In this document: positions 5,154-32,208 of the stretch, piece after piece | Numbering within the stretch: the first letter of the stretch is position 1 | How the letters are laid out: each line of letters opens with the position of its first letter | Virus record (IMG/VR): IMGVR_UViG_3300014962_000027 | Coordinates: 1 to 35,045 of that record | Reading direction: 5' to 3' (one strand) | From: a virus | Length of the DNA stretch: 35,045 nt | Translations under genes and position numbers: made by a program | The notes under the pieces: model-generated | Database searches by the model: none | What the model was told of the DNA's origin: nothing | The model's input: the letters and a program-made list of their open reading frames with translations, nothing else

Positions 5154-7496
5154 TTGACCGTGGCCCAGCCGACCAGCGGCCTCATCGAAGCCGCCCGAGC
5201 CTGGTACGACGCCGGCTTCTGCGTCATCCCCAGTCACGAGGACGGCGGCAAGCGGCCCTTCGGGCAATGGAAGCAGTATCAGCGGCAGCGCCCCGACTGG
5301 GCCACCCTTGAGGGCTGGCTGTCATCGGGGCGGTACACCGGCATTGGACTCATCATGGGCGGCGCCAGCGGCAACGCCGAAATGATCGAGATTGAAGGCC
5401 CAGGGCTCGACAAGCGGCTCAAGACACTTTTCGACACCGCCCGGGACATGGACAAGAAGGTCGACGGCGTCACCGAGCTGCTGGTCCGCTGCTACAACGG
5501 ATGCGCCGAGACCAGCGCCGGCGGTGGCCTGCACATCTTCGTGCGCGTCACCGACGGCCCCGTGCCTGGCAACACGAAACTGGCCATGGATCACGACAAG
5601 GTCGTGGCCGAGACCCGCGGCGAGGGTGGTTTCGTCATTGTGTGGCCGACCCCGGCCAGGACAGGCCACGACCCCGACGAGGCATACGTCCTCATCGCCG
5701 ACGCTTACCCGGCCAACGCCGCCCAGATCACTAGCGAAGAGCACGAGCTGCTGCACTACCTGTTCAGCGAGGCCTTTGGCGGGGTCGACGCCCCCTTGGC
5801 CACTGTCACGCCCATCAAGCCCGGCACCACTCAGCCCATCGGCAGCGGCCTCAGTCCCTTCGACGACTACCGTCAGCGCGTCACCTGGGCCGAAATCCTG
5901 CAACCGGCCGGCTGGACATGGCACTCCAAGGACGCCACCCACGACTACTGGACCCGGCCCGGCAAGGACCCGCGCGACGGTCACTCCGCGTCCACCATCG
6001 ACGACGGCCCCTTCTACCTGTTCTCCACCTCGGTCCACGGAATCCCCACCCAGATCGGACTCAGCAAAGGCCAGGTCTACGCCCACCTCCATCACGGCGG
6101 CGACCTGTCAGCCGCCTCTCGCCAACTCAGGGTCGACGGCTACGGCGACCCGTTGCACGAGCTGCCCACCTGGAACCCACCCGCCAAGATCGCTCCCGAA
6201 TTCTGGGACGCTCATCCCACCCTGGCGCTTGTGCGCCAGGCCGCCTACGCGCGAATGGTCAGCGCCGACGCCGTCCTCGCCTGCGTCCTCGCCCGCGTCG
6301 TCCAGCACATCCCCTACGAGTACGTCATCCCGCCCATTGTCGGCGGCAAGTCGACGCCGAACCTCTACGTCGCTCTCATTGGACCCAGCGGCACTGGCAA
6401 GGGCGGCGCCCGAAGGGCAGCCGACGACCTGCTGGGCCACATCCCCGTCAACTCCAGCAACCCCGTCACCGAAGGGCCACTCGGCAGCGGCGAAGGGATC
6501 GTCAGCCTGTTCTACGAATACCCGCCCGACCCCGACGACCCTGACGCCAAGCGCGGCAAGAACCTGGAACTTCATTACCGGGGAGTAATGATCCTCGACG
6601 AGGAAGGATCAGCCCTCGCCGAACTCATCAAGCGACAGGGCCAGGTCACCGAGCAGACCCTGCTCAAGATGTGGTCGGGCGAGCGCCTGGGCTTCTCCTA
6701 CAGCGCACGAAACTCCGGCCTGCGCCTCTCAGTCCCCGACGGCCAATACCGGGCTTCCGCCCTCCTGGGCATCCAACCCGCCGCCGCCGCGTTCCTCCTC
6801 GATGACGAACGCTCCGACCGCGGACTCCCCCAGAGATTTCTGTGGGCCTCCACCATTGACCCCAACGTGCCCGAGGACGAATTGGAATTCCCCGTCCCGC
6901 TCAACTGGAAACCCCCAAGTTTCGGCAAGGGCCTAGACGCCACCGTCATTTCCATCGCCCAGGAAATACGCCAGCAGTTGCGCAAGAGCCACCACGCTCG
7001 CGTCACCGGGGCCGGCAGCCTTGGCCTGGAATCCCACGGCGGCCTTGTGCAATTGAAGACCGCCGTCGCTTTGGCCGCCCTGTTCAACCCGGGTCAACCG
7101 CTCGCCGTCGATACCGAGATTTGGGGGCTGGCGGGCCAACTCAAGGAAGCGTCAGACTCCGTTAGGGAATCCGTCGCCCAGCGCGCGAGGGCCGACCGGG
7201 AAAAGGTCGCCAGGGCTCGGCAGGACATTGCCGTGCGCCAGCGTGTGGCCGTCCAGGAAGTCGACGCCAAGGTCAAGAATTGCGCCCGCAGTATCGCCCG
7301 GCACATTGCCAAGCATCACTCCGATGAGGGCACCTATTGCACCAGGAACTGTGCCAAGAAGTCGCTGGCCAACAAATACCGCGACGTGTTCGAGGCCGCC
7401 ATTGAATGCGCCGCAGACCTGGACTGGATCGTCGACATCACGCCTGAGGAAAGCGACACCAGCCACTACGGGCTTGGCGCGAGCAGGCCCGCGTGA
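5154..7496 (+). CDS. Primase-helicase (prim-pol plus P-loop ATPase)
   Basis: A 780-aa replication protein. TTG 5154 follows AGGAGG (5144-5149) after four bases; GTG 5160, at ten bases, is an alternative start. Residues 8-200 are a bifunctional primase/polymerase domain ('AWYDAGFCVIP', 'GIGLIMG', acidic MIEIEG near residue 80, and SAGGGLHIFVRV as the histidine motif). Residues 400-620 are a helicase-type ATPase: Walker A GPSGTGKG (K416) and Walker B MILDEE (D482), then a DUF3987-like 'LLKMWSGERLGF ... RGLPQRFLWAS'. The C-terminus is a long charged helix with a Cys/His cluster (CTRNCAKK). It would open the origin and prime synthesis. No phage DNA polymerase is present, so elongation presumably uses the host enzyme. 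Confidence 0.88.
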   Translation: MTVAQPTSGLIEAARAWYDAGFCVIPSHEDGGKRPFGQWKQYQRQRPDWATLEGWLSSGRYTGIGLIMGGASGNAEMIEIEGPGLDKRLKTLFDTARDMDKKVDGVTELLVRCYNGCAETSAGGGLHIFVRVTDGPVPGNTKLAMDHDKVVAETRGEGGFVIVWPTPARTGHDPDEAYVLIADAYPANAAQITSEEHELLHYLFSEAFGGVDAPLATVTPIKPGTTQPIGSGLSPFDDYRQRVTWAEILQPAGWTWHSKDATHDYWTRPGKDPRDGHSASTIDDGPFYLFSTSVHGIPTQIGLSKGQVYAHLHHGGDLSAASRQLRVDGYGDPLHELPTWNPPAKIAPEFWDAHPTLALVRQAAYARMVSADAVLACVLARVVQHIPYEYVIPPIVGGKSTPNLYVALIGPSGTGKGGARRAADDLLGHIPVNSSNPVTEGPLGSGEGIVSLFYEYPPDPDDPDAKRGKNLELHYRGVMILDEEGSALAELIKRQGQVTEQTLLKMWSGERLGFSYSARNSGLRLSVPDGQYRASALLGIQPAAAAFLLDDERSDRGLPQRFLWASTIDPNVPEDELEFPVPLNWKPPSFGKGLDATVISIAQEIRQQLRKSHHARVTGAGSLGLESHGGLVQLKTAVALAALFNPGQPLAVDTEIWGLAGQLKEASDSVRESVAQRARADREKVARARQDIAVRQRVAVQEVDAKVKNCARSIARHIAKHHSDEGTYCTRNCAKKSLANKYRDVFEAAIECAADLDWIVDITPEESDTSHYGLGASRPA

Positions 7497-9746: not shown

Positions 9747-10007
9747 ATGCCCGTGCCGCGTGCCAGGAAGGTCCCAGAGACGCTGGCGGGCCTCGCCGCG
9801 ACCGGTGACAGGCGCGCGACGCTTGAAGCCCTACGGAATTTCCTAGCGGCACAACTTGAAAACTCCGAGCGCGACATTCCCGCGCTTGCGAAGCAACTGC
9901 GCGACACCATCGCCGAATTGGACGCCTTGCCGAATCCGAAGGAGACGAGCCGTGTCGACGAGCTCAACGCTCGCCGCGCCGCTCGGCGCTCAAAGGCCGC
10001 GGGTTAG
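9747..10007 (+). CDS. terS: Terminase small subunit
   Basis: An 86-aa basic, helical protein from ATG 9747 with CTGGAG upstream. Position alone (between HNH and large terminase, overlapping the latter by 56 bases) supports the call. The pattern 'RRATLEALRNFLAAQLENSERDIPALAKQLRDTIAELDAL' followed by a basic tail (NARRAARRSK) matches short small-terminase-like proteins of HK97-type actinophages. It would recognise the packaging site and present DNA to the large subunit. No helix-turn-helix is obvious, so the call rests mostly on context. Confidence 0.7.
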   Translation: MPVPRARKVPETLAGLAATGDRRATLEALRNFLAAQLENSERDIPALAKQLRDTIAELDALPNPKETSRVDELNARRAARRSKAAG

Positions 10008-11382
10008 TCACTTCCCAGAGGGGGTGAGTTCCGCGGGGGTTGAGGCGGCCGAGTTAGCCGCGTCGGCAGGTCTCGTGCTGGACGACTGGCAGCAGTTCGT
10101 CCTGGCGCATTCCCTGGCCGAGCGCAAGGACGGCAAGTGGGCGTCCTTCGAGGTCGGCCTGGTCGTGCCGCGTCAGAACGGCAAAGGCTCCATCCTCGAG
10201 GCTCGCGAGTTGGCCGGCTTGTTCATGTTCGGCGAGCAGCTCATCTTGCATTCGGCGCACGAATTCAAGACCGCGCAGGAGGCGTTCCGGCGCATCCTGT
10301 TCCTGGTCGAGAACACCGACGACCTGCGGAAGCGGGTTGCTCGGGTGCGGACCTCGCACGGCGAGGAGGGCATCGAGCTCAAGACGGGCCAGCGGCTGCG
10401 CTTCATCGCGCGGTCCACGGGCTCAGGCCGCGGATTCTCGGGCGACTGCGTCATCCTTGACGAGGCTTATGAGCTGTCGGCTCAGGCCATGGGCGCGCTG
10501 CTGCCGACGCTGTCGGCCCGGCCAAACCCTCAGATTTGGTACACCTCGAGCGCCGGGAAGTTGTCGTCGTCGCAGTTGACGATGGTCCGCGACCGCGGAC
10601 GCGCGGGGTCGGACCCTCGGCTGGCCTATTTCGAGTGGTCGGCCGATCCGAAATGCGACGCGCTGGACCGCGAGGCGTGGGCGGCCGCTAACCCGGCGTT
10701 GGGCATCCGCATTGACTCCGAGTTCGTGGAGGCCGAGGCGACGGCGCTGCCGGAGATTGAGTTTCGCCGGGAGCGCCTGGGCATCTGGGACGACGAGAAC
10801 GCGGGCGCCGATTGGGTGATCCCGATCGACGCCTGGGACGCCTGCGGGGACGCGGACTCTGAGGTTGAGGACCCGGTGACCTTCGCCATTGACGTGTCCA
10901 TGGACCGGGCGCACGCCTCCATCTCGGTGGCGGGATTGCGCGCCGACGGTTTGCCGACGGTGGAGGTCGTGGACTTCCGGCGCGGCACCTCGTGGGTGAC
11001 GAAGCGGGTCGTGGAGTTGGTGGGCCGTCATGGGGCGCTGGCCGTGGGGTTGGACCCTGGGGGGCCGTCGGGGTCGCTGATCCCCGAGCTTGAGGCCGCG
11101 CTGGACGTGCCCATCGTGACGTTCTCGGCGCGTGACTTCGCGCAGGCCTGTGGCTCGTTCTACGACGCGGTGCTGTCGGGGCAGCTGCGGCATCGGGGTC
11201 AGCCGGAGTTGAACCTGGCCGTGTCGGGTGCGCGCAAGCGGCCCTTGGGGGATTCATGGGCGTGGGCTCGCAAGGGCGCCGCCTCGGAGATCACGACGCT
11301 GATCTCGTCAACTTTGGCTTTGTGGACTTATTCGGATGCGACGGCCGTGAAGCCGGTAAATGTCGCTGACTCGGTGTGGTGA
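9952..11382 (+). CDS. terL: Terminase large subunit
   Basis: The start chosen is GTG 9952, with AAGGAG seven bases upstream inside the terS gene; this gives 476 aa. The ATPase half has a variant Walker A 'VVPRQNGKG' (K78), the 'ILHSAHEFKTAQEAFRRI' motif and Walker B 'CVILDEAYEL' (D170, E171). The C-terminal nuclease half shows 'FAIDVSMDRAHASI' (D314) and 'AVGLDPGG' (D368), typical of the RNase-H-like headful/cos nuclease. It pumps DNA into proheads and cuts concatemers. HK97-type terminase family, of usual length. Confidence 0.95.
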   Translation: MSTSSTLAAPLGAQRPRVSHFPEGVSSAGVEAAELAASAGLVLDDWQQFVLAHSLAERKDGKWASFEVGLVVPRQNGKGSILEARELAGLFMFGEQLILHSAHEFKTAQEAFRRILFLVENTDDLRKRVARVRTSHGEEGIELKTGQRLRFIARSTGSGRGFSGDCVILDEAYELSAQAMGALLPTLSARPNPQIWYTSSAGKLSSSQLTMVRDRGRAGSDPRLAYFEWSADPKCDALDREAWAAANPALGIRIDSEFVEAEATALPEIEFRRERLGIWDDENAGADWVIPIDAWDACGDADSEVEDPVTFAIDVSMDRAHASISVAGLRADGLPTVEVVDFRRGTSWVTKRVVELVGRHGALAVGLDPGGPSGSLIPELEAALDVPIVTFSARDFAQACGSFYDAVLSGQLRHRGQPELNLAVSGARKRPLGDSWAWARKGAASEITTLISSTLALWTYSDATAVKPVNVADSVW

Positions 11383-11390
11383 GGAGTTTC

Positions 11391-11537
11391 ATGCGCGCAC
11401 GGCTGCCTTTCGTGCTCGACGTCGCGGGCATCGTCCTCGTGTGCGCCGGGGCCTGGGCGTTCTCCTCCATCGCCGGCCTGGTCGTGTCTGGCCTTGGCTG
11501 CCTGGGCCTGTCCTTCCTCGTGGAGCGTGATAAGTGA
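11391..11537 (+). CDS. Small two-helix membrane protein (48 aa)
   Basis: ATG 11391 with GAGGAG eight bases upstream. It encodes 48 residues that are hydrophobic almost throughout: helix one near residues 6-24 (DVAGIVLVCAGAWAF) and helix two near 27-43 (AGLVVSGLGCLGLSF), with a charged VERDK end. Its stop overlaps the portal GTG. Small membrane proteins between terminase and portal genes recur in actinophages, but their function is not established; too short for most gene callers. Confidence 0.7.
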   Translation: MRARLPFVLDVAGIVLVCAGAWAFSSIAGLVVSGLGCLGLSFLVERDK

Positions 11538-12748
11538 GCCTTATTCGTCGCTTGACGCAGGGGGCGCCTGAGCAGCGCAACGACGTGCCGTGGGCGGGCT
11601 GGCCTGCCTACCCGCTCAATTCCCAGCAGCCGGGGACGACGACTTTCTCGGGCGTCAACGTGTCGGCCGATTCGGCTATGCGTCACGCGGCCGTGTGGGC
11701 GTGTGTGCGGCTGATTTCGGGGACTATCGGGCAGATGCCGCTTCAGGGCGTGCGCGACGGGGGCGACTATCCCGAGCCGGTGACCCCGACTCCCCCGCTG
11801 CTGGCGTCGCCTTCGAGCATTGTCCCGCGCTCGGCATGGGTGGAGTCGGTGCTGGTGTCTTTGCTACTGCGCGGTAACTGCTACGGCCGCGTCGTGGAGA
11901 CGGGCGCCAATGGCCGCGCCACGAAGATCGACATTCTCAACCCTGACCGGGTGCGTCCCGACATTGAGCCGGGCACGCGCCGCAAGGTCTACTACTTGAG
12001 CGGCGAGGACGGCTCGGTCGTGCCGCACTACTCGTTCGACACCGGCCGCGGCGACATCTGGCATGTGCCGGGCCTGCTGCTGCCGGGCTCGTGGGTGGGC
12101 CTGTCGCCCATCGAGTACGCAAAGCAGACCATCGGCCAGGGCCTGGCCGCCGAGAAGTTCGGCTCGCAATGGTTCGGCGAGGGCGGCGTGCCGGCGGCGA
12201 TCCTGTCCACCGATCAGCCCGTGACCGAGGAGCAGGCCAGCACGATCAAAACCCGCTTCATGTCGGCGGTGCGCGGCAAGCGCGAGCCCGCCATCCTCGG
12301 GGCCGGTCTGAAGTACGAGGCGATCCAGGTGGCGCCCGAGGAGTCGCAGTTTATTGAGGCGCAGTCGTGGAGCACCGCCCAGGTGGCTCGCGTTTTCGGC
12401 CTGTCGCCGTCGCTTCTTGAGGTCTCCACGGGCTCGTCTAATGCGCTGACCTATCAGAACCGCGAGTCCCGCGTGAGCGACTTTCTCGCGTTTGGCCTTG
12501 GCCCGTGGATTCATCGCTTGGAGGAGTCCCTGTCGGCGCTGCTGCCGAATCCGCAGCAGGCCCGATTCAAGACCGGCGCCATCCTGCGAGCCGACATTCA
12601 GACCCGCTACCAGACGTATGCCATCGCCGCCCAGGTCCAGGCGTCCACGGGCCAGCCGCTGCTGACGGCAAACGAGATGCGCGCTTTGGAGAACTTGCCG
12701 CCTTTGCCGGCGGCCGATGGGGGCCTTACCGGAGGAACACCAGCATGA
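11534..12748 (+). CDS. Portal protein (HK97 type)
   Basis: GTG 11534 overlaps the previous stop; 404 aa, the usual HK97 portal length. Recognisable segments are 'AVWACVRLISGTIGQMPL' (residues ~53-70), 'LVSLLLRGNCYGRVV', 'GLSPIEYAKQTIGQGLAAEKF', 'TRFMSAVRGKREPAILGAG', and 'FIEAQSWSTAQVARVFGLSPSLL'. These are standard for the Phage_portal family. As a dodecamer it forms the DNA channel at the unique capsid vertex and docks the terminase. It is followed, with a 4-base overlap, by the protease gene. Confidence 0.95.
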   Translation: MSLIRRLTQGAPEQRNDVPWAGWPAYPLNSQQPGTTTFSGVNVSADSAMRHAAVWACVRLISGTIGQMPLQGVRDGGDYPEPVTPTPPLLASPSSIVPRSAWVESVLVSLLLRGNCYGRVVETGANGRATKIDILNPDRVRPDIEPGTRRKVYYLSGEDGSVVPHYSFDTGRGDIWHVPGLLLPGSWVGLSPIEYAKQTIGQGLAAEKFGSQWFGEGGVPAAILSTDQPVTEEQASTIKTRFMSAVRGKREPAILGAGLKYEAIQVAPEESQFIEAQSWSTAQVARVFGLSPSLLEVSTGSSNALTYQNRESRVSDFLAFGLGPWIHRLEESLSALLPNPQQARFKTGAILRADIQTRYQTYAIAAQVQASTGQPLLTANEMRALENLPPLPAADGGLTGGTPA

Positions 12749-13896
12749 GTGACAAGGTCGAGCGCCGTTCAGTCGAAGCGGGGTGGGAAATCCGCACCGA
12801 GCCGGACGGCAAGGTGGGACTGCGCGGGTACGCCGCCATGTTCGACTCTCCCGCGCACGGCGAGGTCATCCGGTCTAGCGCCTTCACTAAGACCCTCGCC
12901 GAGCAGGCCGACTGCCGCTTGCTTGTGAATCACGACGGCGTGCCAATCGCCAGGACGAAGTCCGGCAGCCTGCACCTCAGCGTTGACGAGAACGGCCTGG
13001 TCGTGGACGCCCCCGACCTGGACATGGCAAACCCGACGGTGCAGGAACTGGTCTCGGCCATGTCCCGCGGCGACATTGACCAGATGTCCTTTGCGTTTAT
13101 CCCGGTGCGCGAGAACTACGACCAGGAGACCCGCACTCGCGAGATTCTTGAGTGCCGTCTCATGGACGTCTCGGTGGTCACCTACCCCTGGTACGAGTCC
13201 ACTAGCGTCGGGCTGAAGTCCCTAGACATGGCCCTGGCCGAGGTTCGCTCGGGCGCGGTCTCCCCCGAGGCCCGCGAGGTCATCCTGGCCGCGCTGGGTG
13301 ACGTTCCGGTGGACGCCGAGGGCGAGCCCATCGACCCGGCCAACGATGCGCTTGAGGACGAGCAGGACGCCCGCGACCTGTGCGACTACTTGAACACCGC
13401 CCTGGCCGACGTGTTCACCATGTACTACCGGGCGCACTCCGCGCATTGGGACGTGGTCGGCCCCGACTTCAGCCAGTACCACGAACTCTTTGGCGAAATC
13501 GCGGAGGACGTGTACGGCAGCGTTGACCCGCTTGCCGAGAACATCCGCAAGTGCGGCGGCGTGCCCGTCGGCACCCTGCCCGAAATCGTCGCGGCCCGCA
13601 CTATTGAGGACGCTGCGCCGAGCATGGATGCCCGCACTCTTGCCGCCGACCTTATGACCGCCAACGACCTTGTCGTGGATTGCCTGAAGCGCGCGTTTGA
13701 CGCCGCTGACGACGCCGACGAGCAGGGTCTGGCGAACTTCCTGGCCGAGCGCATCGACCGCCACCAGATGTGGCGCTGGCAGCTCGCCTCTTCGCTCGGC
13801 ATCGCTTCGGTGCCGATGCGTTCCGATTCTCCCGAGGCCGTTGAGTCTCGGGCTGCGCGCAATCTCGAAATTGCGCGTCTGTACCTCGCGCGCTGA
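12745..13896 (+). CDS. Prohead protease fused to Dps/ferritin-like domain
   Basis: One uninterrupted 383-aa reading frame from ATG 12745, GGAGG nine bases upstream. Residues 1-165 are an HK97/U35-type prohead protease: 'GLRGYAAMF', 'LLVNHDGVPIART' (H63), 'MSFAFIPV' (S115) and 'LMDVSVVTYPWY'. Residues ~208-370 match Dps: 'DLCDYLNTALADVFTMYYRAH', then 'AHWDVVGPDF' (H234), 'YHELF' (H246) and 'SVDPLAENI' (D261, E265). The intervals H-12-H-15-D-4-E equal those of the E. coli Dps ferroxidase site (H51, H63, D78, E82); the D67 position is Gly250. The protease matures the capsid. The fused domain would be delivered into the procapsid, where it might bind iron or protect DNA. Confidence 0.9.
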   Translation: MSDKVERRSVEAGWEIRTEPDGKVGLRGYAAMFDSPAHGEVIRSSAFTKTLAEQADCRLLVNHDGVPIARTKSGSLHLSVDENGLVVDAPDLDMANPTVQELVSAMSRGDIDQMSFAFIPVRENYDQETRTREILECRLMDVSVVTYPWYESTSVGLKSLDMALAEVRSGAVSPEAREVILAALGDVPVDAEGEPIDPANDALEDEQDARDLCDYLNTALADVFTMYYRAHSAHWDVVGPDFSQYHELFGEIAEDVYGSVDPLAENIRKCGGVPVGTLPEIVAARTIEDAAPSMDARTLAADLMTANDLVVDCLKRAFDAADDADEQGLANFLAERIDRHQMWRWQLASSLGIASVPMRSDSPEAVESRAARNLEIARLYLAR

Positions 13897-14002: not shown

Positions 14003-15292
14003 TTGTCTATTCGCGACTCGCTTATCGCGCAGCGCGAGGGCAAGCTGGCCGAGGCCCGTGCCGTCGTTGAGACGGCCGAGGCCGAGACCCGCGACATCAC
14101 CGACGAGGAGCTCGTCGTGGTGAAGGAGGCCCGTGAGGCCGCCGACGCCATCGACGCTCGCCTGTCAGAGATGGACGCCCTTGAGGCTGCTCAGGCGCGC
14201 TCATTCGCGCCGTCCACCACGGCATCGGTTCAGGTCACCTCTGAGCCTGCCACCTACCGCAAGGACGGGGAGCACTCGTTCTTCCGCGACCTGTTCATGC
14301 AGTCCCGCGGCGACCGTGACGCCATGGAGCGTCTCGCTCGCAACAATGCGGAGGCTCGGGCGCTCAACACGACCGACACCTCCGGCGGCGACATGGTGTT
14401 CCCGCTCTACATGCAGGACGTCATTCGTTTCGCCAGGGCTGGCCGGGTCTCCATTGACCAGCTCAACAAGGCGCCGTTGCCTTCTGGAACCGACTCCATC
14501 AATGTGCCTGCCGTTACCACCGGCACTATCGCAGCGACTCAGTCCAGCCAGAACAGCGGCTTCAATGAGTCGGACGCGGTCACCGCGACCAAGACGGCGG
14601 CCGTGCACACGACGGGCGGCATCCAGACCCTCAGCGTGCAGCTGATCGAGCAGGGCTCGGTCCCGCTTGATCAGATCATCCTGCAGGACCTGGTCGCCGA
14701 CCTGTACCGCGCTATGGACGTGTGGGGCCTGTCCTCCAATGCCACCGGCAAGTACGGCCTCCTGAACACCCCCTCGGCGATCTCGGTGGCGTACACCGAC
14801 GCTTCGCCGACGGTGCCGGAGTTCGTCGTCGCCGTGGGCAACGCGATCCAGCAGATCCACACCCAGCGGTACGCCGCCCCGACGCGCATTCTCATGCACC
14901 CGCGTCGTTGGCAGTGGATTCAGACGGCGGCAGACGGCAATAGCCGCCTGTTCATCGTCCCGACCGCGCAGGGTCCGTTCAACGCGACCGGCACCACCGA
15001 GGGCGTCGTGCCCGAGGGTCTTGCCGGCACGCTGCTCGGCCTCCCGGTGTACGTCGATGCCAACATCCCCACCAACACCGGCAGCGGCACCAACCAGGAC
15101 CCCGTCATCGTCCTCAAGGCCGACGACGTCCACTTCTGGGAGTCCGCTCCCAAGGCGGAGTCCTTCGCGGCAACGCTCGCGAACCAGGGCTCGGTCCTGT
15201 TCCGCGCATACGCGTACCACGCGATGGTTAGCAGGTACGCGAAGTCGGTGGCCGTCGTGAATGGCACCGGCCTCGTCAACCCCTACGCCTGA
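14003..15292 (+). CDS. Major capsid protein (HK97 fold)
   Basis: Start at TTG 14003, with AAGGAG six bases upstream; 429 aa. Residues 1-~75 are a charged coiled coil equivalent to the HK97 delta scaffolding domain, normally removed by the prohead protease. From residue ~125 the HK97 fold is evident: 'LNTTDTSGGDMVFPLYMQDVI', 'PLPSGTDSINVPAVTTG', 'DVWGLSSNATGKYGLLNTP', 'RILMHPRRWQWIQTAADGN', and a C-terminal 'LFRAYAYHAMVSRYAKSVAVVNGTG'. The 106 bases before it contain no gene. It is followed by two stable hairpins that could cap or stabilise its abundant mRNA. Confidence 0.95.
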   Translation: MSIRDSLIAQREGKLAEARAVVETAEAETRDITDEELVVVKEAREAADAIDARLSEMDALEAAQARSFAPSTTASVQVTSEPATYRKDGEHSFFRDLFMQSRGDRDAMERLARNNAEARALNTTDTSGGDMVFPLYMQDVIRFARAGRVSIDQLNKAPLPSGTDSINVPAVTTGTIAATQSSQNSGFNESDAVTATKTAAVHTTGGIQTLSVQLIEQGSVPLDQIILQDLVADLYRAMDVWGLSSNATGKYGLLNTPSAISVAYTDASPTVPEFVVAVGNAIQQIHTQRYAAPTRILMHPRRWQWIQTAADGNSRLFIVPTAQGPFNATGTTEGVVPEGLAGTLLGLPVYVDANIPTNTGSGTNQDPVIVLKADDVHFWESAPKAESFAATLANQGSVLFRAYAYHAMVSRYAKSVAVVNGTGLVNPYA

Positions 15293-25040: not shown

Positions 25041-25394
25041 ATGCAATCCCCCGGCCGCTACGACATGACGATTTACCAGGGCGCGTCCTTTGACACGACG
25101 CTGACGTGGAAGGTGGGCGACCCGGCAACGCCGGTGAACCTCACCGGGTACACGGCTCGGCTCCAGGTCCGCTCCTCGACCGACGCCGCTACGACGGCGC
25201 TCGAACTGACTACCGCGAATGGCGGCATCGTCCTCGGGGGCGCGGCGGGGACGATTGCCCTGGCCGTGTCGGCCACCGCCACCGCGGCGCTGTCCCCCGG
25301 CTACTACGTCTACGACCTGGAGCTCGTCAACGGCGCGACGGTCACGCGCCTGGTTGAGGGTCGCGTCACGGTGAGCGCGGAGGTGACCCGATGA
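25041..25394 (+). CDS. BppU-like baseplate/minor tail protein
   Basis: ATG 25041 directly follows the previous stop, with GGAGG nine bases upstream. The 117-aa beta protein ('[18 protein letters not shown]', '[13 protein letters not shown]', '[21 protein letters not shown]') matches the N-terminal domain of BppU-type baseplate proteins, which serves as an adaptor between tail and fibre. It is coupled (ATGA) to the collagen-like fibre gene downstream and likely anchors it. Confidence 0.68.
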
Positions 25395-27250
25395 CCCAGG
25401 TCAACGTGACAAGCCCGACGCCGGCCACGGTGGAGGTCACCGGCCCGACGACCGCGACCGTGACGTGGGCCGACGCTGGCCCGCAGGGTGCGATTGGACC
25501 GACCGGCCCGGCCGGACCTACGGGTCCGCAGGGCGTGACCGGCCCGGCCGGGGCGCAGGGAATCCAGGGCAACGTCGGGCCAAGCGGACCCCAGGGCCCC
25601 GTCGGCGCCACGGGACCCACAGGACCGCAGGGACTTTCCATCACGGGACCCACCGGGCCTAAGGGCGACATGGGTGCCGCGGTTTCCATCAAGGGTTCCT
25701 ACTCCGACTACGCCGCACTCGTCGCAGCTCATCCCACCGGCGCGCTCGGGGACGCCTATCTCACCGACAACGGTGACCTCTACGTCTGGACCGGCGCGGC
25801 GTGGCAGAACGTCGGCAACATCGAGGGACCCACCGGGCCGCAGGGTCCGCAGGGCCCGCAGGGCGAGGTCGGACCTACGGGTGCCGCGTCCACTGTGCCC
25901 GGTCCCACGGGCCCGGCCGGCCCTACCGGCGCGCAGGGTCCGCAGGGTGCACAGGGACCCATCGGCAGCACGGGACCCACCGGTCCTGCCGGGGAATCCA
26001 TCGTCGGCCCGACCGGTCCGCAGGGTCCGCAGGGTGAGGTTGGCCCGACCGGGCCTCAGGGCGACTCGATCACGGGACCTACGGGACCCGCGTCGACTGT
26101 GCCCGGCCCGACCGGCCCTACTGGTCCTGCCGGCGAATCGGTGACCGGACCTACTGGCCCCCAGGGCGAGCCCGGTCCGCAGGGCGATACCGGCCCGGCC
26201 GGGGCATCCGGTCCCACAGGCCCGACGGGACCCGCCGGCGACTCGATCACGGGACCCACGGGCCCGCAGGGTCCGGTCGGTGAGGTCGGTCCCACGGGTG
26301 CCGAGGGACCCATGGGCGCCACCGGCCCGAGCGGTCCGGCTGGCCCGAGCGGACCCACCGGTCCAGAGGGTCCGGCGGGCGCCAAGGGCGACCCCGGGGA
26401 CGTTGGCCCGACCGGTCCCAGCGGTCCGGCGGGACCCAGCGGTCCGCAGGGCGACACCGGCCCGGCTGGCCCATCCGGTGCAGTCGGCCCGACCGGCCCA
26501 CAGGGAGCACCTGGCGCCGACGGTCCCACTGGCCCATCCGGCCCGGCCGGACCCCAGGGGGACACCGGTCCGGTCGGCGCCACGGGTCCGCAGGGGGTGG
26601 CCGGTCCAAGCGGACCCACGGGCCCGGCCGGGGAGGTCGGACCCACGGGACCCCAGGGCTCTCAAGGAATTCAGGGCGATACGGGCCCGGCCGGTGCAGT
26701 CGGTCCTACGGGCCCAGCCGGCGCCGCCGGTGCCGACGGTGCCACGGGTCCGGTCGGCCCGACGGGACCCTCGGGACCCACAGGTCCGCAGGGGCCGCAG
26801 GGAATTCAAGGCATACAGGGAGTGGCCGGCGACACCGGCCCGGCCGGCGCAGTCGGACCAACGGGACCATCCGGTCCAATCGGCCCTACGGGCCCATCCG
26901 GCCCGGTCGGCGACACCGGCCCATCCGGTCCGGTCGGACCTACGGGCCCCACGGGACCCCAGGGAGCTGCGTCCACGGTGACCGGTCCTACCGGGCCCCA
27001 GGGCCCCACGGGACCTACCGGACCTCAACCGTCCCTCGGCTCGGCGACCCCGCAGGCCCTCGGGTCCGCGGCCGCCGGCACGAGCGCGACCGCAGCTCGT
27101 GACGACCACGTCCACCCCACCACCGGCGTCGTCCTTAACGCGCTCTTTACCGCGCCACGGCAATTACTGTCCTCCACCGCGTCAGGCACGCCAGCGGTCA
27201 TCGCCATCGAGGACGACCAAATCATCCTGTCCAATCAGGTCTTCAACTAG
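25391..27250 (+). CDS. Collagen-like tail fibre (619 aa)
   Basis: ATG 25391. After a short beta N-terminus, residues ~31-95 and ~146-545 are Gly-X-Y repeats, mostly GPT, GPS, GPQ and GPA triplets, in all about 150 triplets. Collagen-type triple helices of this kind form thin flexible phage fibres. A globular insert at ~96-145 ('[20 protein letters not shown]', '[14 protein letters not shown]') interrupts the helix. The last ~75 residues carry '[13 protein letters not shown]', a trimerisation/tip motif common in fibres. Hydroxyproline is not needed in bacterial collagens. A long reading frame on the other strand merely mirrors the GGN-rich repeats. Confidence 0.92.
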
Positions 27251-31110: not shown

Positions 31111-32208
31111 ATGAAGGTCGCCGTCTACTCCATCGCCAAAGACGAAGCCGCCCACGTTGAGCGGTGGGCATCCTCTGCCGCCGACGCCGACTGTCTAGTC
31201 CTCCTTGACACCGGCTCCACCGACGGCACGCCCGACCTCGCCGCCGACCTCGGGGTCGACACCCACGTCCGCACCTTCCGGCCGTGGCGGTTCGACCACG
31301 CCCGCAACACCGCCCTGGCCCTGGTCCCCGACGATGTGGACTATTGCATCGCGCTCGACCTCGATGAGGTGCTGGTCCCCGGGTGGCGCGACGCCCTAGA
31401 GACCGCGCATCGGGAAGGCTGGACCCGGCCCCGCTACCGGTACACGTGGAGCTGGAACCCCGACGGGTCCCCCGGCCTCACCTACGGCGGCGACAAGATT
31501 CACGCCCGGCACGGCTACTACTGGCGGCACCCCGTCCACGAAGTCATCACCCCCCTCGGGGCCGAAACCCAGGGCTGGGTCAGCCTGGAGATTCACCACC
31601 ACCCCGACGCCTCCAAGTCCCGCTCCCAGTACCTGCCCCTGCTGCGACAGGCCGTGGACGAGGACCCGGCCGACGATAGGAACGCCTATTACCTGGCACG
31701 GGAACTCCTGTTCGCCGGCCGCCACGACGAAGCCCGCGCCGAATTCCACCGCTACCTCGCCCTGCCCCGCGCCACCTGGGACGCCGAACGCAGTAAGGCC
31801 ATGCGCTACCTCGCGCAGCTCGACCCCGACCAGGCCGAACGCTGGCTCCTCCGCGCCACCGCCGAAGCCCCGCACCGGCGCGAACCCTGGGTTGACCTCG
31901 CCCAGCACTACCACGACACCGGGCAATGGGTCGCCTGCCTAGCCGCCGCCCGCCGCGCCCTCGACTACACCGACCAGCCCCTGGAATACCTGTGCGAACC
32001 GGACGCCTGGGGCGCGAAACCCCACGACCTCGCCGCGCTGGCCTCCTGGCATTTGGGCCTGTACGGCGACGCCAAACGGTACGGCCGGCAGGCCGTCCAG
32101 CACGACCCCACGAATCCGCGACTAGCAGCCAACTACGACCACTACCGGGAGGCCGCATGCCCTTCCTCATCGCCTTCCTCGCCGGCTTCATCGTCGGATC
32201 AGCACTAG
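31111..32208 (+). CDS. Glycosyltransferase with TPR-like repeats
   Basis: ATG 31111 with GAGGGGG eight bases upstream; 365 aa. N-terminal GT-A (family 2-type) domain: 'VAVYSIAKDEAAHVERW', 'LLDTGSTDGT', and 'ALDLDEVL' carrying the DxD metal motif (D83, D85). 'GDKIHARHGYYWRHPVHEVI' continues the fold. From residue ~185 are TPR-like helical repeats ('NAYYLARELLFAGRHDEARA', 'EPWVDLAQHYHDTGQWVACL'). Such enzymes occur in many actinophages and are thought to glycosylate virion proteins or host surface. The last 15 codons overlap a small membrane-peptide gene and are low-complexity. Confidence 0.88.
   Translation: MKVAVYSIAKDEAAHVERWASSAADADCLVLLDTGSTDGTPDLAADLGVDTHVRTFRPWRFDHARNTALALVPDDVDYCIALDLDEVLVPGWRDALETAHREGWTRPRYRYTWSWNPDGSPGLTYGGDKIHARHGYYWRHPVHEVITPLGAETQGWVSLEIHHHPDASKSRSQYLPLLRQAVDEDPADDRNAYYLARELLFAGRHDEARAEFHRYLALPRATWDAERSKAMRYLAQLDPDQAERWLLRATAEAPHRREPWVDLAQHYHDTGQWVACLAAARRALDYTDQPLEYLCEPDAWGAKPHDLAALASWHLGLYGDAKRYGRQAVQHDPTNPRLAANYDHYREAACPSSSPSSPASSSDQH

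Follow-up and report, generated by a model that had tools for sequence, protein, structure and literature searches.

A putative phage head maturation protease with an inserted Dps/ferritin-like domain, and the recurrent pairing of viral Dps domains with head proteins

Introduction

Prohead proteases of the HK97 gp4 type (MEROPS S78, PF04586, phrog_80) are co-assembled into procapsids, digest the scaffold and themselves, and largely leave the head. Dps proteins form 12-mers, and binding of DNA through a basic tail is a property of some of them only and does not define them all. In encapsulins, an HK97-fold shell encloses a ferritin-fold enzyme, which is loaded by means of a terminal peptide.

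Dps and ferritin proteins are also encoded by phages, where they have been reported as host protection (Dps in Gratiaviridae, PMC8008677; Dps/ferritin in Lactobacillus phages, PMC6669764; ferritin of freshwater phages as a defence against ROS, PMC6802176). Multidomain proteins of phages and conjugative elements that are thought to be packaged have been surveyed as polyvalent proteins; the main text of the survey is without Dps or ferritin, and prohead proteases occur only in its reference list (PMC5512222). Among open-licence papers, no literature on a prohead protease joined to Dps was found. Here we describe such a protein, encoded within the window (positions 1 to 35,045 of IMG/VR virus record IMGVR_UViG_3300014962_000027), and its relatives.

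Results

Fusion gene and its neighborhood

The preliminary description of this DNA had proposed that one frame joins an HK97-type protease to a Dps-like domain, and this is confirmed: the gene (Table 1) comprises 383 codons without an internal stop or a frameshift between the two parts, and in profile searches both parts scored above the curated Pfam cut-offs (Peptidase_S78, 106 bits against 21; Ferritin, PF00210, at residues 214-351, 71 bits against 24.5, E 1.2e-19). In the PHROGs collection the protease part matches the head maturation protease phrog_80 (E 4.9e-40) and the Dps part the Dps-type "DNA binding protein" phrog_3636 (E 4.1e-23). The start was placed at 12745 because the ATG is preceded at 9 bases by a Shine-Dalgarno sequence, GGAGG, and forms an ATGA overlap with the stop of the portal gene, and because of the relatives; a longer version starting at GTG 12505 was ruled out, since the Shine-Dalgarno site and the relatives back the shorter one.

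Table 1. Features of the head-gene region, in window coordinates.
Feature	Position	Strand	Basis
Terminase large subunit gene	9856..11382	+	phrog_9, E 7e-94
Portal protein gene (4-base overlap with fusion gene)	11534..12748	+	PF04860, E 7e-69; phrog_12
Shine-Dalgarno-like GGAGGAA of fusion gene	12731..12737	+	read from sequence
Prohead protease-Dps fusion gene (383 aa; position includes stop codon)	12745..13896	+	single open frame; PF04586 and PF00210 over cut-off; whole-length alignment of the three-member fusion family
Peptidase_S78 domain, residues 21-161, catalytic H63 and S115	12805..13227	+	PF04586, E 2.5e-30; H63/S115 invariant in 23 relatives
Acidic linker, residues 171-207, net charge -10, insertion place	13255..13365	+	kept in Dps-less L028-L036; pLDDT about 50-65 over most
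Dps/ferritin-like domain, residues 208-351; ligands H234, H246, D261, E265	13366..13797	+	PF00210; phrog_3636; AlphaFold2 Dps fold; dN/dS about 0.22-0.30 between three fusions
Helix-containing C-terminal tail (residues 352-383, ...SPEAVESRAARNLEIARLYLAR), candidate peptide for docking to the procapsid	13798..13893	+	shared by close relatives whether or not they have Dps
HK97-type major capsid protein gene; N-terminal segment a putative delta-type scaffold	14003..15292	+	PF05065, E 1.2e-13 at residues 150-420; phrog_2263; N-terminal sequence

The GC and GC3 contents of the protease part (64.3 and 85%), the Dps part (66.0 and 86%), the capsid gene and the portal gene all agree, so that there is no sign of chimeric assembly. 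The fusion is also present in other IMG/VR contigs (L001 and L002, 75% identity; L003, 72%) and is therefore neither an assembly artefact nor chance; a frameshift artefact was ruled out on the same grounds, together with the uniform composition and the lack of stops. Phage and plasmid collections held no record covering at least 80% of the fusion protein, and a pattern scan for close relatives found no fusion-bearing prophage among 9 loci from cultured-genome contigs.

The head-gene context that had been described likewise holds (PF04860, PF05065, PHROGs). The gene lies between those for the portal and the major capsid protein, with the terminase large subunit gene further upstream, which is the order found with HK97 gp4-type proteases. 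The domain and the catalytic His and Ser are also shared with that type, and the assignment of H63 and S115 as catalytic residues agrees with their invariance across the aligned proteases. The best matches of the protease part are in mycobacteriophages and a Pseudonocardia plasmid record, which is weak evidence for an actinobacterial host; no tRNA genes were found in the sequence. Elsewhere the window encodes a DNA polymerase/primase-like protein (5154-7496), a tail-fibre protein that strongly matches collagen-like families (25391-27250) and a beta-1,4-glycosyltransferase-like protein (31111-32208, phrog_13126).

Fold and ligands of the Dps domain

The nearest sequences of solved structure are all Dps proteins (1n1q, E 5e-17; 8ff9, E 7e-17). 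Residues 202-383 were modelled with AlphaFold2 from an alignment of 17 sequences (a mixed alignment of protease and solo Dps sequences, which misplaced helix A, was left out of folding), giving a mean pLDDT of 89.6, with values of at least 94 over most of the Dps domain. The single-chain model has helices at 2-35, 41-68, 77-83, 95-122 and 126-149 (domain-construct numbering), that is, four long helices plus, in the BC loop, the short one by which Dps is recognised. A four-helix bundle was thus obtained, as the preliminary description had anticipated. In VIA-align it superposes on Dps crystal structures with Z scores near 22: 2chp gave 22.5 (148 residues, rmsd 1.3) and 2fjc 22.6 (150 residues, rmsd 1.5). 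The top 50 PDB rows in Foldseek were Dps-family proteins. The full-length fusion modelled poorly (pTM 0.42), and for this reason the relative placement of protease and Dps is not readable from the model.

The four ferroxidase ligands do stand at the spacing of E. coli H51, H63, D78 and E82. Among 93 distinct viral Dps domains, the equivalents of D261 and E265 are invariant (93/93), and those of H234, W235 and H246 are invariant wherever covered (92/92), the latter figure being biased because the search patterns included the histidines; they did not include D261 or E265. At the position of E. coli D67 the protein does have Gly250, but this is not peculiar to it, since Asp occurs there in none of the 93 viral domains and Glu in 12.

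Bacterial Dps proteins and mini-ferritins (PF00210; e.g. PA0962 of Pseudomonas aeruginosa, 8ff9, and MrgA of Bacillus subtilis, 2chp) share the four-helix bundle, the BC helix and the His/His/Asp/Glu spacing with the window domain, which differs in being part of a phage head protein, in having no acidic residue at the D67 position, and in being acidic (pI 4.3) without a basic DNA-binding tail (the C-terminal tail has a net charge of +1). The main groups of fused Dps domains are similarly acidic (median pI about 4.4-4.5). Between the three fusions, dN/dS is 0.22-0.30 for the Dps part and 0.13-0.19 for the protease, values that are rough because synonymous sites are near saturation; by these estimates the Dps domain is under purifying selection.

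Dps as an insert

The preliminary description had presented Dps as a C-terminal fusion. It does lie downstream of the protease, but a conserved tail follows it, in which A377 and R378 are nearly invariant (alignment of 23 sequences). The nearest proteases without Dps (L028-L036, 73-87% identical over the protease) run into the acidic linker and end in the shared tail (NLEIARLYLA or RIDIARALYLR). Judged from this alignment, Dps is an insert between the linker and the tail, a feature which sets the protein apart from HK97 gp4-type proteases. Over all 72 proteases the AR motif of the tail gave a count of 38 against a mean of 33 in simple composition shuffles, which is not beyond chance, so that the evidence for a conserved tail comes only from aligning close relatives. 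In 14 Dps-less records, some of them short fragments, no ferritin domain was found elsewhere in the available sequence.

In the protease tree, the nearest row to the window is the Dps-less L028 (88%), L003 groups with the Dps-less L031 and L034, and the Dps label needs five changes. In the Dps tree, the Dps domains of the three fusions form one clade with full support. A single gain followed by several losses, or cassette exchange, would fit this single clade set against five changes.

Other domains were seen in the same stretch of protease relatives: a zinc ribbon in L039 (5861-6625) and L041 (6001-6861), a TUDOR-like domain (PF11160) between protease and C-terminal tail in L089 (5210-6139), and a domain of about 90 aa, containing DWAVYYCYDGDWD or similar, in the protease linker of L048 (2793-3671), L051 (3041-3919) and L052 (3021-3890), for which no Pfam match was found in L048 and L052. 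With such domains in relatives, the linker looks as if it were an exchangeable slot.

Recurrence of Dps in head proteins

When 17 Dps domains were used as queries, at least 587 viral relatives came up, and 80 loci were retained; this set is biased towards relatives of the window's Dps, and group fractions are therefore not population frequencies. In about 45 cases, a distinct viral Dps domain shares its ORF with a head protein: (i) 31 domains precede an S78 protease, in many cases accompanied by phrog_2859 and a TUDOR-like domain; (ii) five are C-terminal to S78 (the window clade, L117 and L169); (iii) five are paired with a phrog_9427 protease and one with phrog_2753; (iv) two are in portal/protease ORFs (phrog_859, phrog_18402); and (v) one is joined to a minor head protein. 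A further 33 are solo, and 13 are in other large ORFs. The protease-Dps arrangement is thus present as described, but it is one among several ways in which Dps is repeatedly fused to head proteins, in both orders. The neighbors of the other large ORFs match major head protein, head maturation protease and portal families, whereas those of solo Dps genes are mainly replication initiation proteins and helicase loaders. In the Dps tree, whose deep branches are weak, one change separates head-linked from solo domains.

In BFVD, "Prohead protease" entries of uncultured Caudovirales (333, 432 and 763 aa) match the window's Dps model. Going by the names of these entries and their Dps match, such fusions appear to have been deposited already without discussion.

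Several loci show further arrangements. In L164 (5560-7971), an 804-aa ORF combines Dps with a minor head protein region matching the zeta-toxin kinase family (PF06414). In L159 (413-2919), two ORFs in different frames, one for a phrog_9427 protease and one for Dps with phrog_19463, share 28 bases; the same domains form a single ORF in L192, of which L159 is possibly a split or frameshifted version. The phrog_2859 domain accompanies Dps in varied head ORFs: L131 (5632-7842), L161 (2286-4217), L192 (4063-7281), L185 (2242-7398) and L158 (5557-6444).

Discussion

We consider it somewhat better than an even chance (about 55%) that this gene encodes a head maturation protease carrying Dps as cargo, which would be loaded into the procapsid to oxidise and hold iron. 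Speaking for this are both domains in one frame between the portal and capsid genes, the Dps fold, the invariant ligands, the dN/dS of 0.22-0.30, the linker and tail kept with or without Dps, the repeated fusion of viral Dps, in either order, to head proteases of different families, and the replication neighbors of solo Dps as against the head-gene neighbors of Dps in large ORFs. Against it, the closest relatives have no Dps and must be viable without it, and the ferroxidase site may be weaker because the fifth ligand (E. coli D67) is missing; moreover, Dps might be lost along with the protease, as enzymes of the HK97 type are self-destroying and for the most part do not stay in the head.

We infer the following course. 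The fusion would be made late, together with portal and capsid protein, and enclosed in the procapsid via its protease part and probably also the conserved tail; joined to a protease of a type that is co-assembled into procapsids, Dps would thereby be carried to the head interior. There the Dps domains would assemble, through the dimer and trimer interfaces usual for Dps, into cages with ferroxidase activity, while the protease would cut the delta domain of the capsid protein and perhaps also the flexible acidic linker within the fusion itself. At about 9 nm across, such a cage should exceed the shell pores and so would stay in the head, or it might be expelled with the DNA unfolded or as smaller units. 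It would oxidise Fe(II) with peroxide, hold the iron, and shield the genome, either packaged or incoming, from hydroxyl radicals.

Among the roles that had been suggested for the Dps part, iron sequestration is favoured, because the ferroxidase ligands are strictly conserved. DNA compaction is unlikely, given the acidity of fused Dps domains and the lack of a basic tail in the window protein; the acidic composition speaks against direct DNA binding in general, and protection of DNA by a Dps that does not bind it is known from the entry title of 1o9r. An internal scaffold role is also disfavoured: the capsid protein has a likely delta-type N-terminus of its own, so that a scaffold is not missing. 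The joint frame, the head-gene context and the ferroxidase ligands of the preliminary description therefore stand, whereas Gly250 as a special trait and a plain C-terminal fusion do not, and the compaction and scaffold roles are disfavoured.

The same delta-type segment also argues against the improbable case in which Dps is a temporary filler or assembly aid of the procapsid that is removed and degraded during maturation, as do the conserved catalytic ligands; the acidic, poorly ordered linker would suit a cleavable segment, and HK97-type proteases do digest scaffold and themselves. Dps could instead be an oligomerisation module only, clustering proteases as dodecamers in the procapsid and tuning their dose or activation, with iron chemistry incidental. 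Its 12-mers, the protease as constant partner in most fusions, and the unrelated domains in the same place in other relatives are all compatible with this, but we regard it as unlikely, for the ligands are invariant in all fused domains and not needed for oligomerisation alone, and relatives 77-87% identical in the protease manage without Dps.

Alternatively, Dps might protect the host from ROS while the cell is infected, either prior to assembly or once cleaved from the protease, and fusion would merely secure late co-expression. Freshwater phages are reported with ROS-defence genes including ferritin (PMC6802176), and the DPS enzymes of gut phages were read as host protection (PMC8008677); yet stand-alone viral Dps genes are found mainly in replication regions while fused ones are tied to several head protein families, and co-expression alone would not require fusion. 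We hold this explanation, too, to be rather unlikely.

The Dps cargo reading can be set beside known systems. The stand-alone phage Dps of Lactobacillus phages (PMC6669764), Gratiaviridae (PMC8008677) and freshwater phages (PMC6802176) has the viral Dps domain in common with the fusion; the stand-alone genes sampled here have no head protein fused to them and lie for the most part near replication genes. Like polyvalent proteins (PMC5512222), the fusion protein is multidomain, and it is encoded in the head module. The HK97-fold shell, ferritin-fold enzyme and terminal loading peptide of encapsulins with ferritin-like cargo are likened here by analogy, packaging in the phage being conditional; the window belongs to a true phage with portal, terminase and tail genes, and its cargo is covalently fused to the shell protease. 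A bolder proposal, which we put forward tentatively and consider somewhat doubtful, is an independent encapsulin-like phage system, in which head proteases would be the carriers, the linker an exchangeable slot for cargo (Dps, zinc ribbon, TUDOR-like and other domains) and the tail the part that docks to the shell, a distinct head Dps lineage having been shuffled among several protease families and loading ferritin cages into virions.

Beyond the preliminary description, Dps emerges as an insert, and its pairing with head proteins recurs in several arrangements. Phage Dps and ferritin have so far been read as host protection; that they are repeatedly fused to an enzyme which procapsids enclose suggests iron chemistry within the head, and, given this recurrence, the heads of these phages are probably loaded with cages that detoxify iron. 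Whether virions carry or handle iron, as has been proposed, thereby becomes directly testable, and the fusions offer a natural model for enzyme loading into HK97-type shells, in parallel to encapsulin-ferritin compartments.
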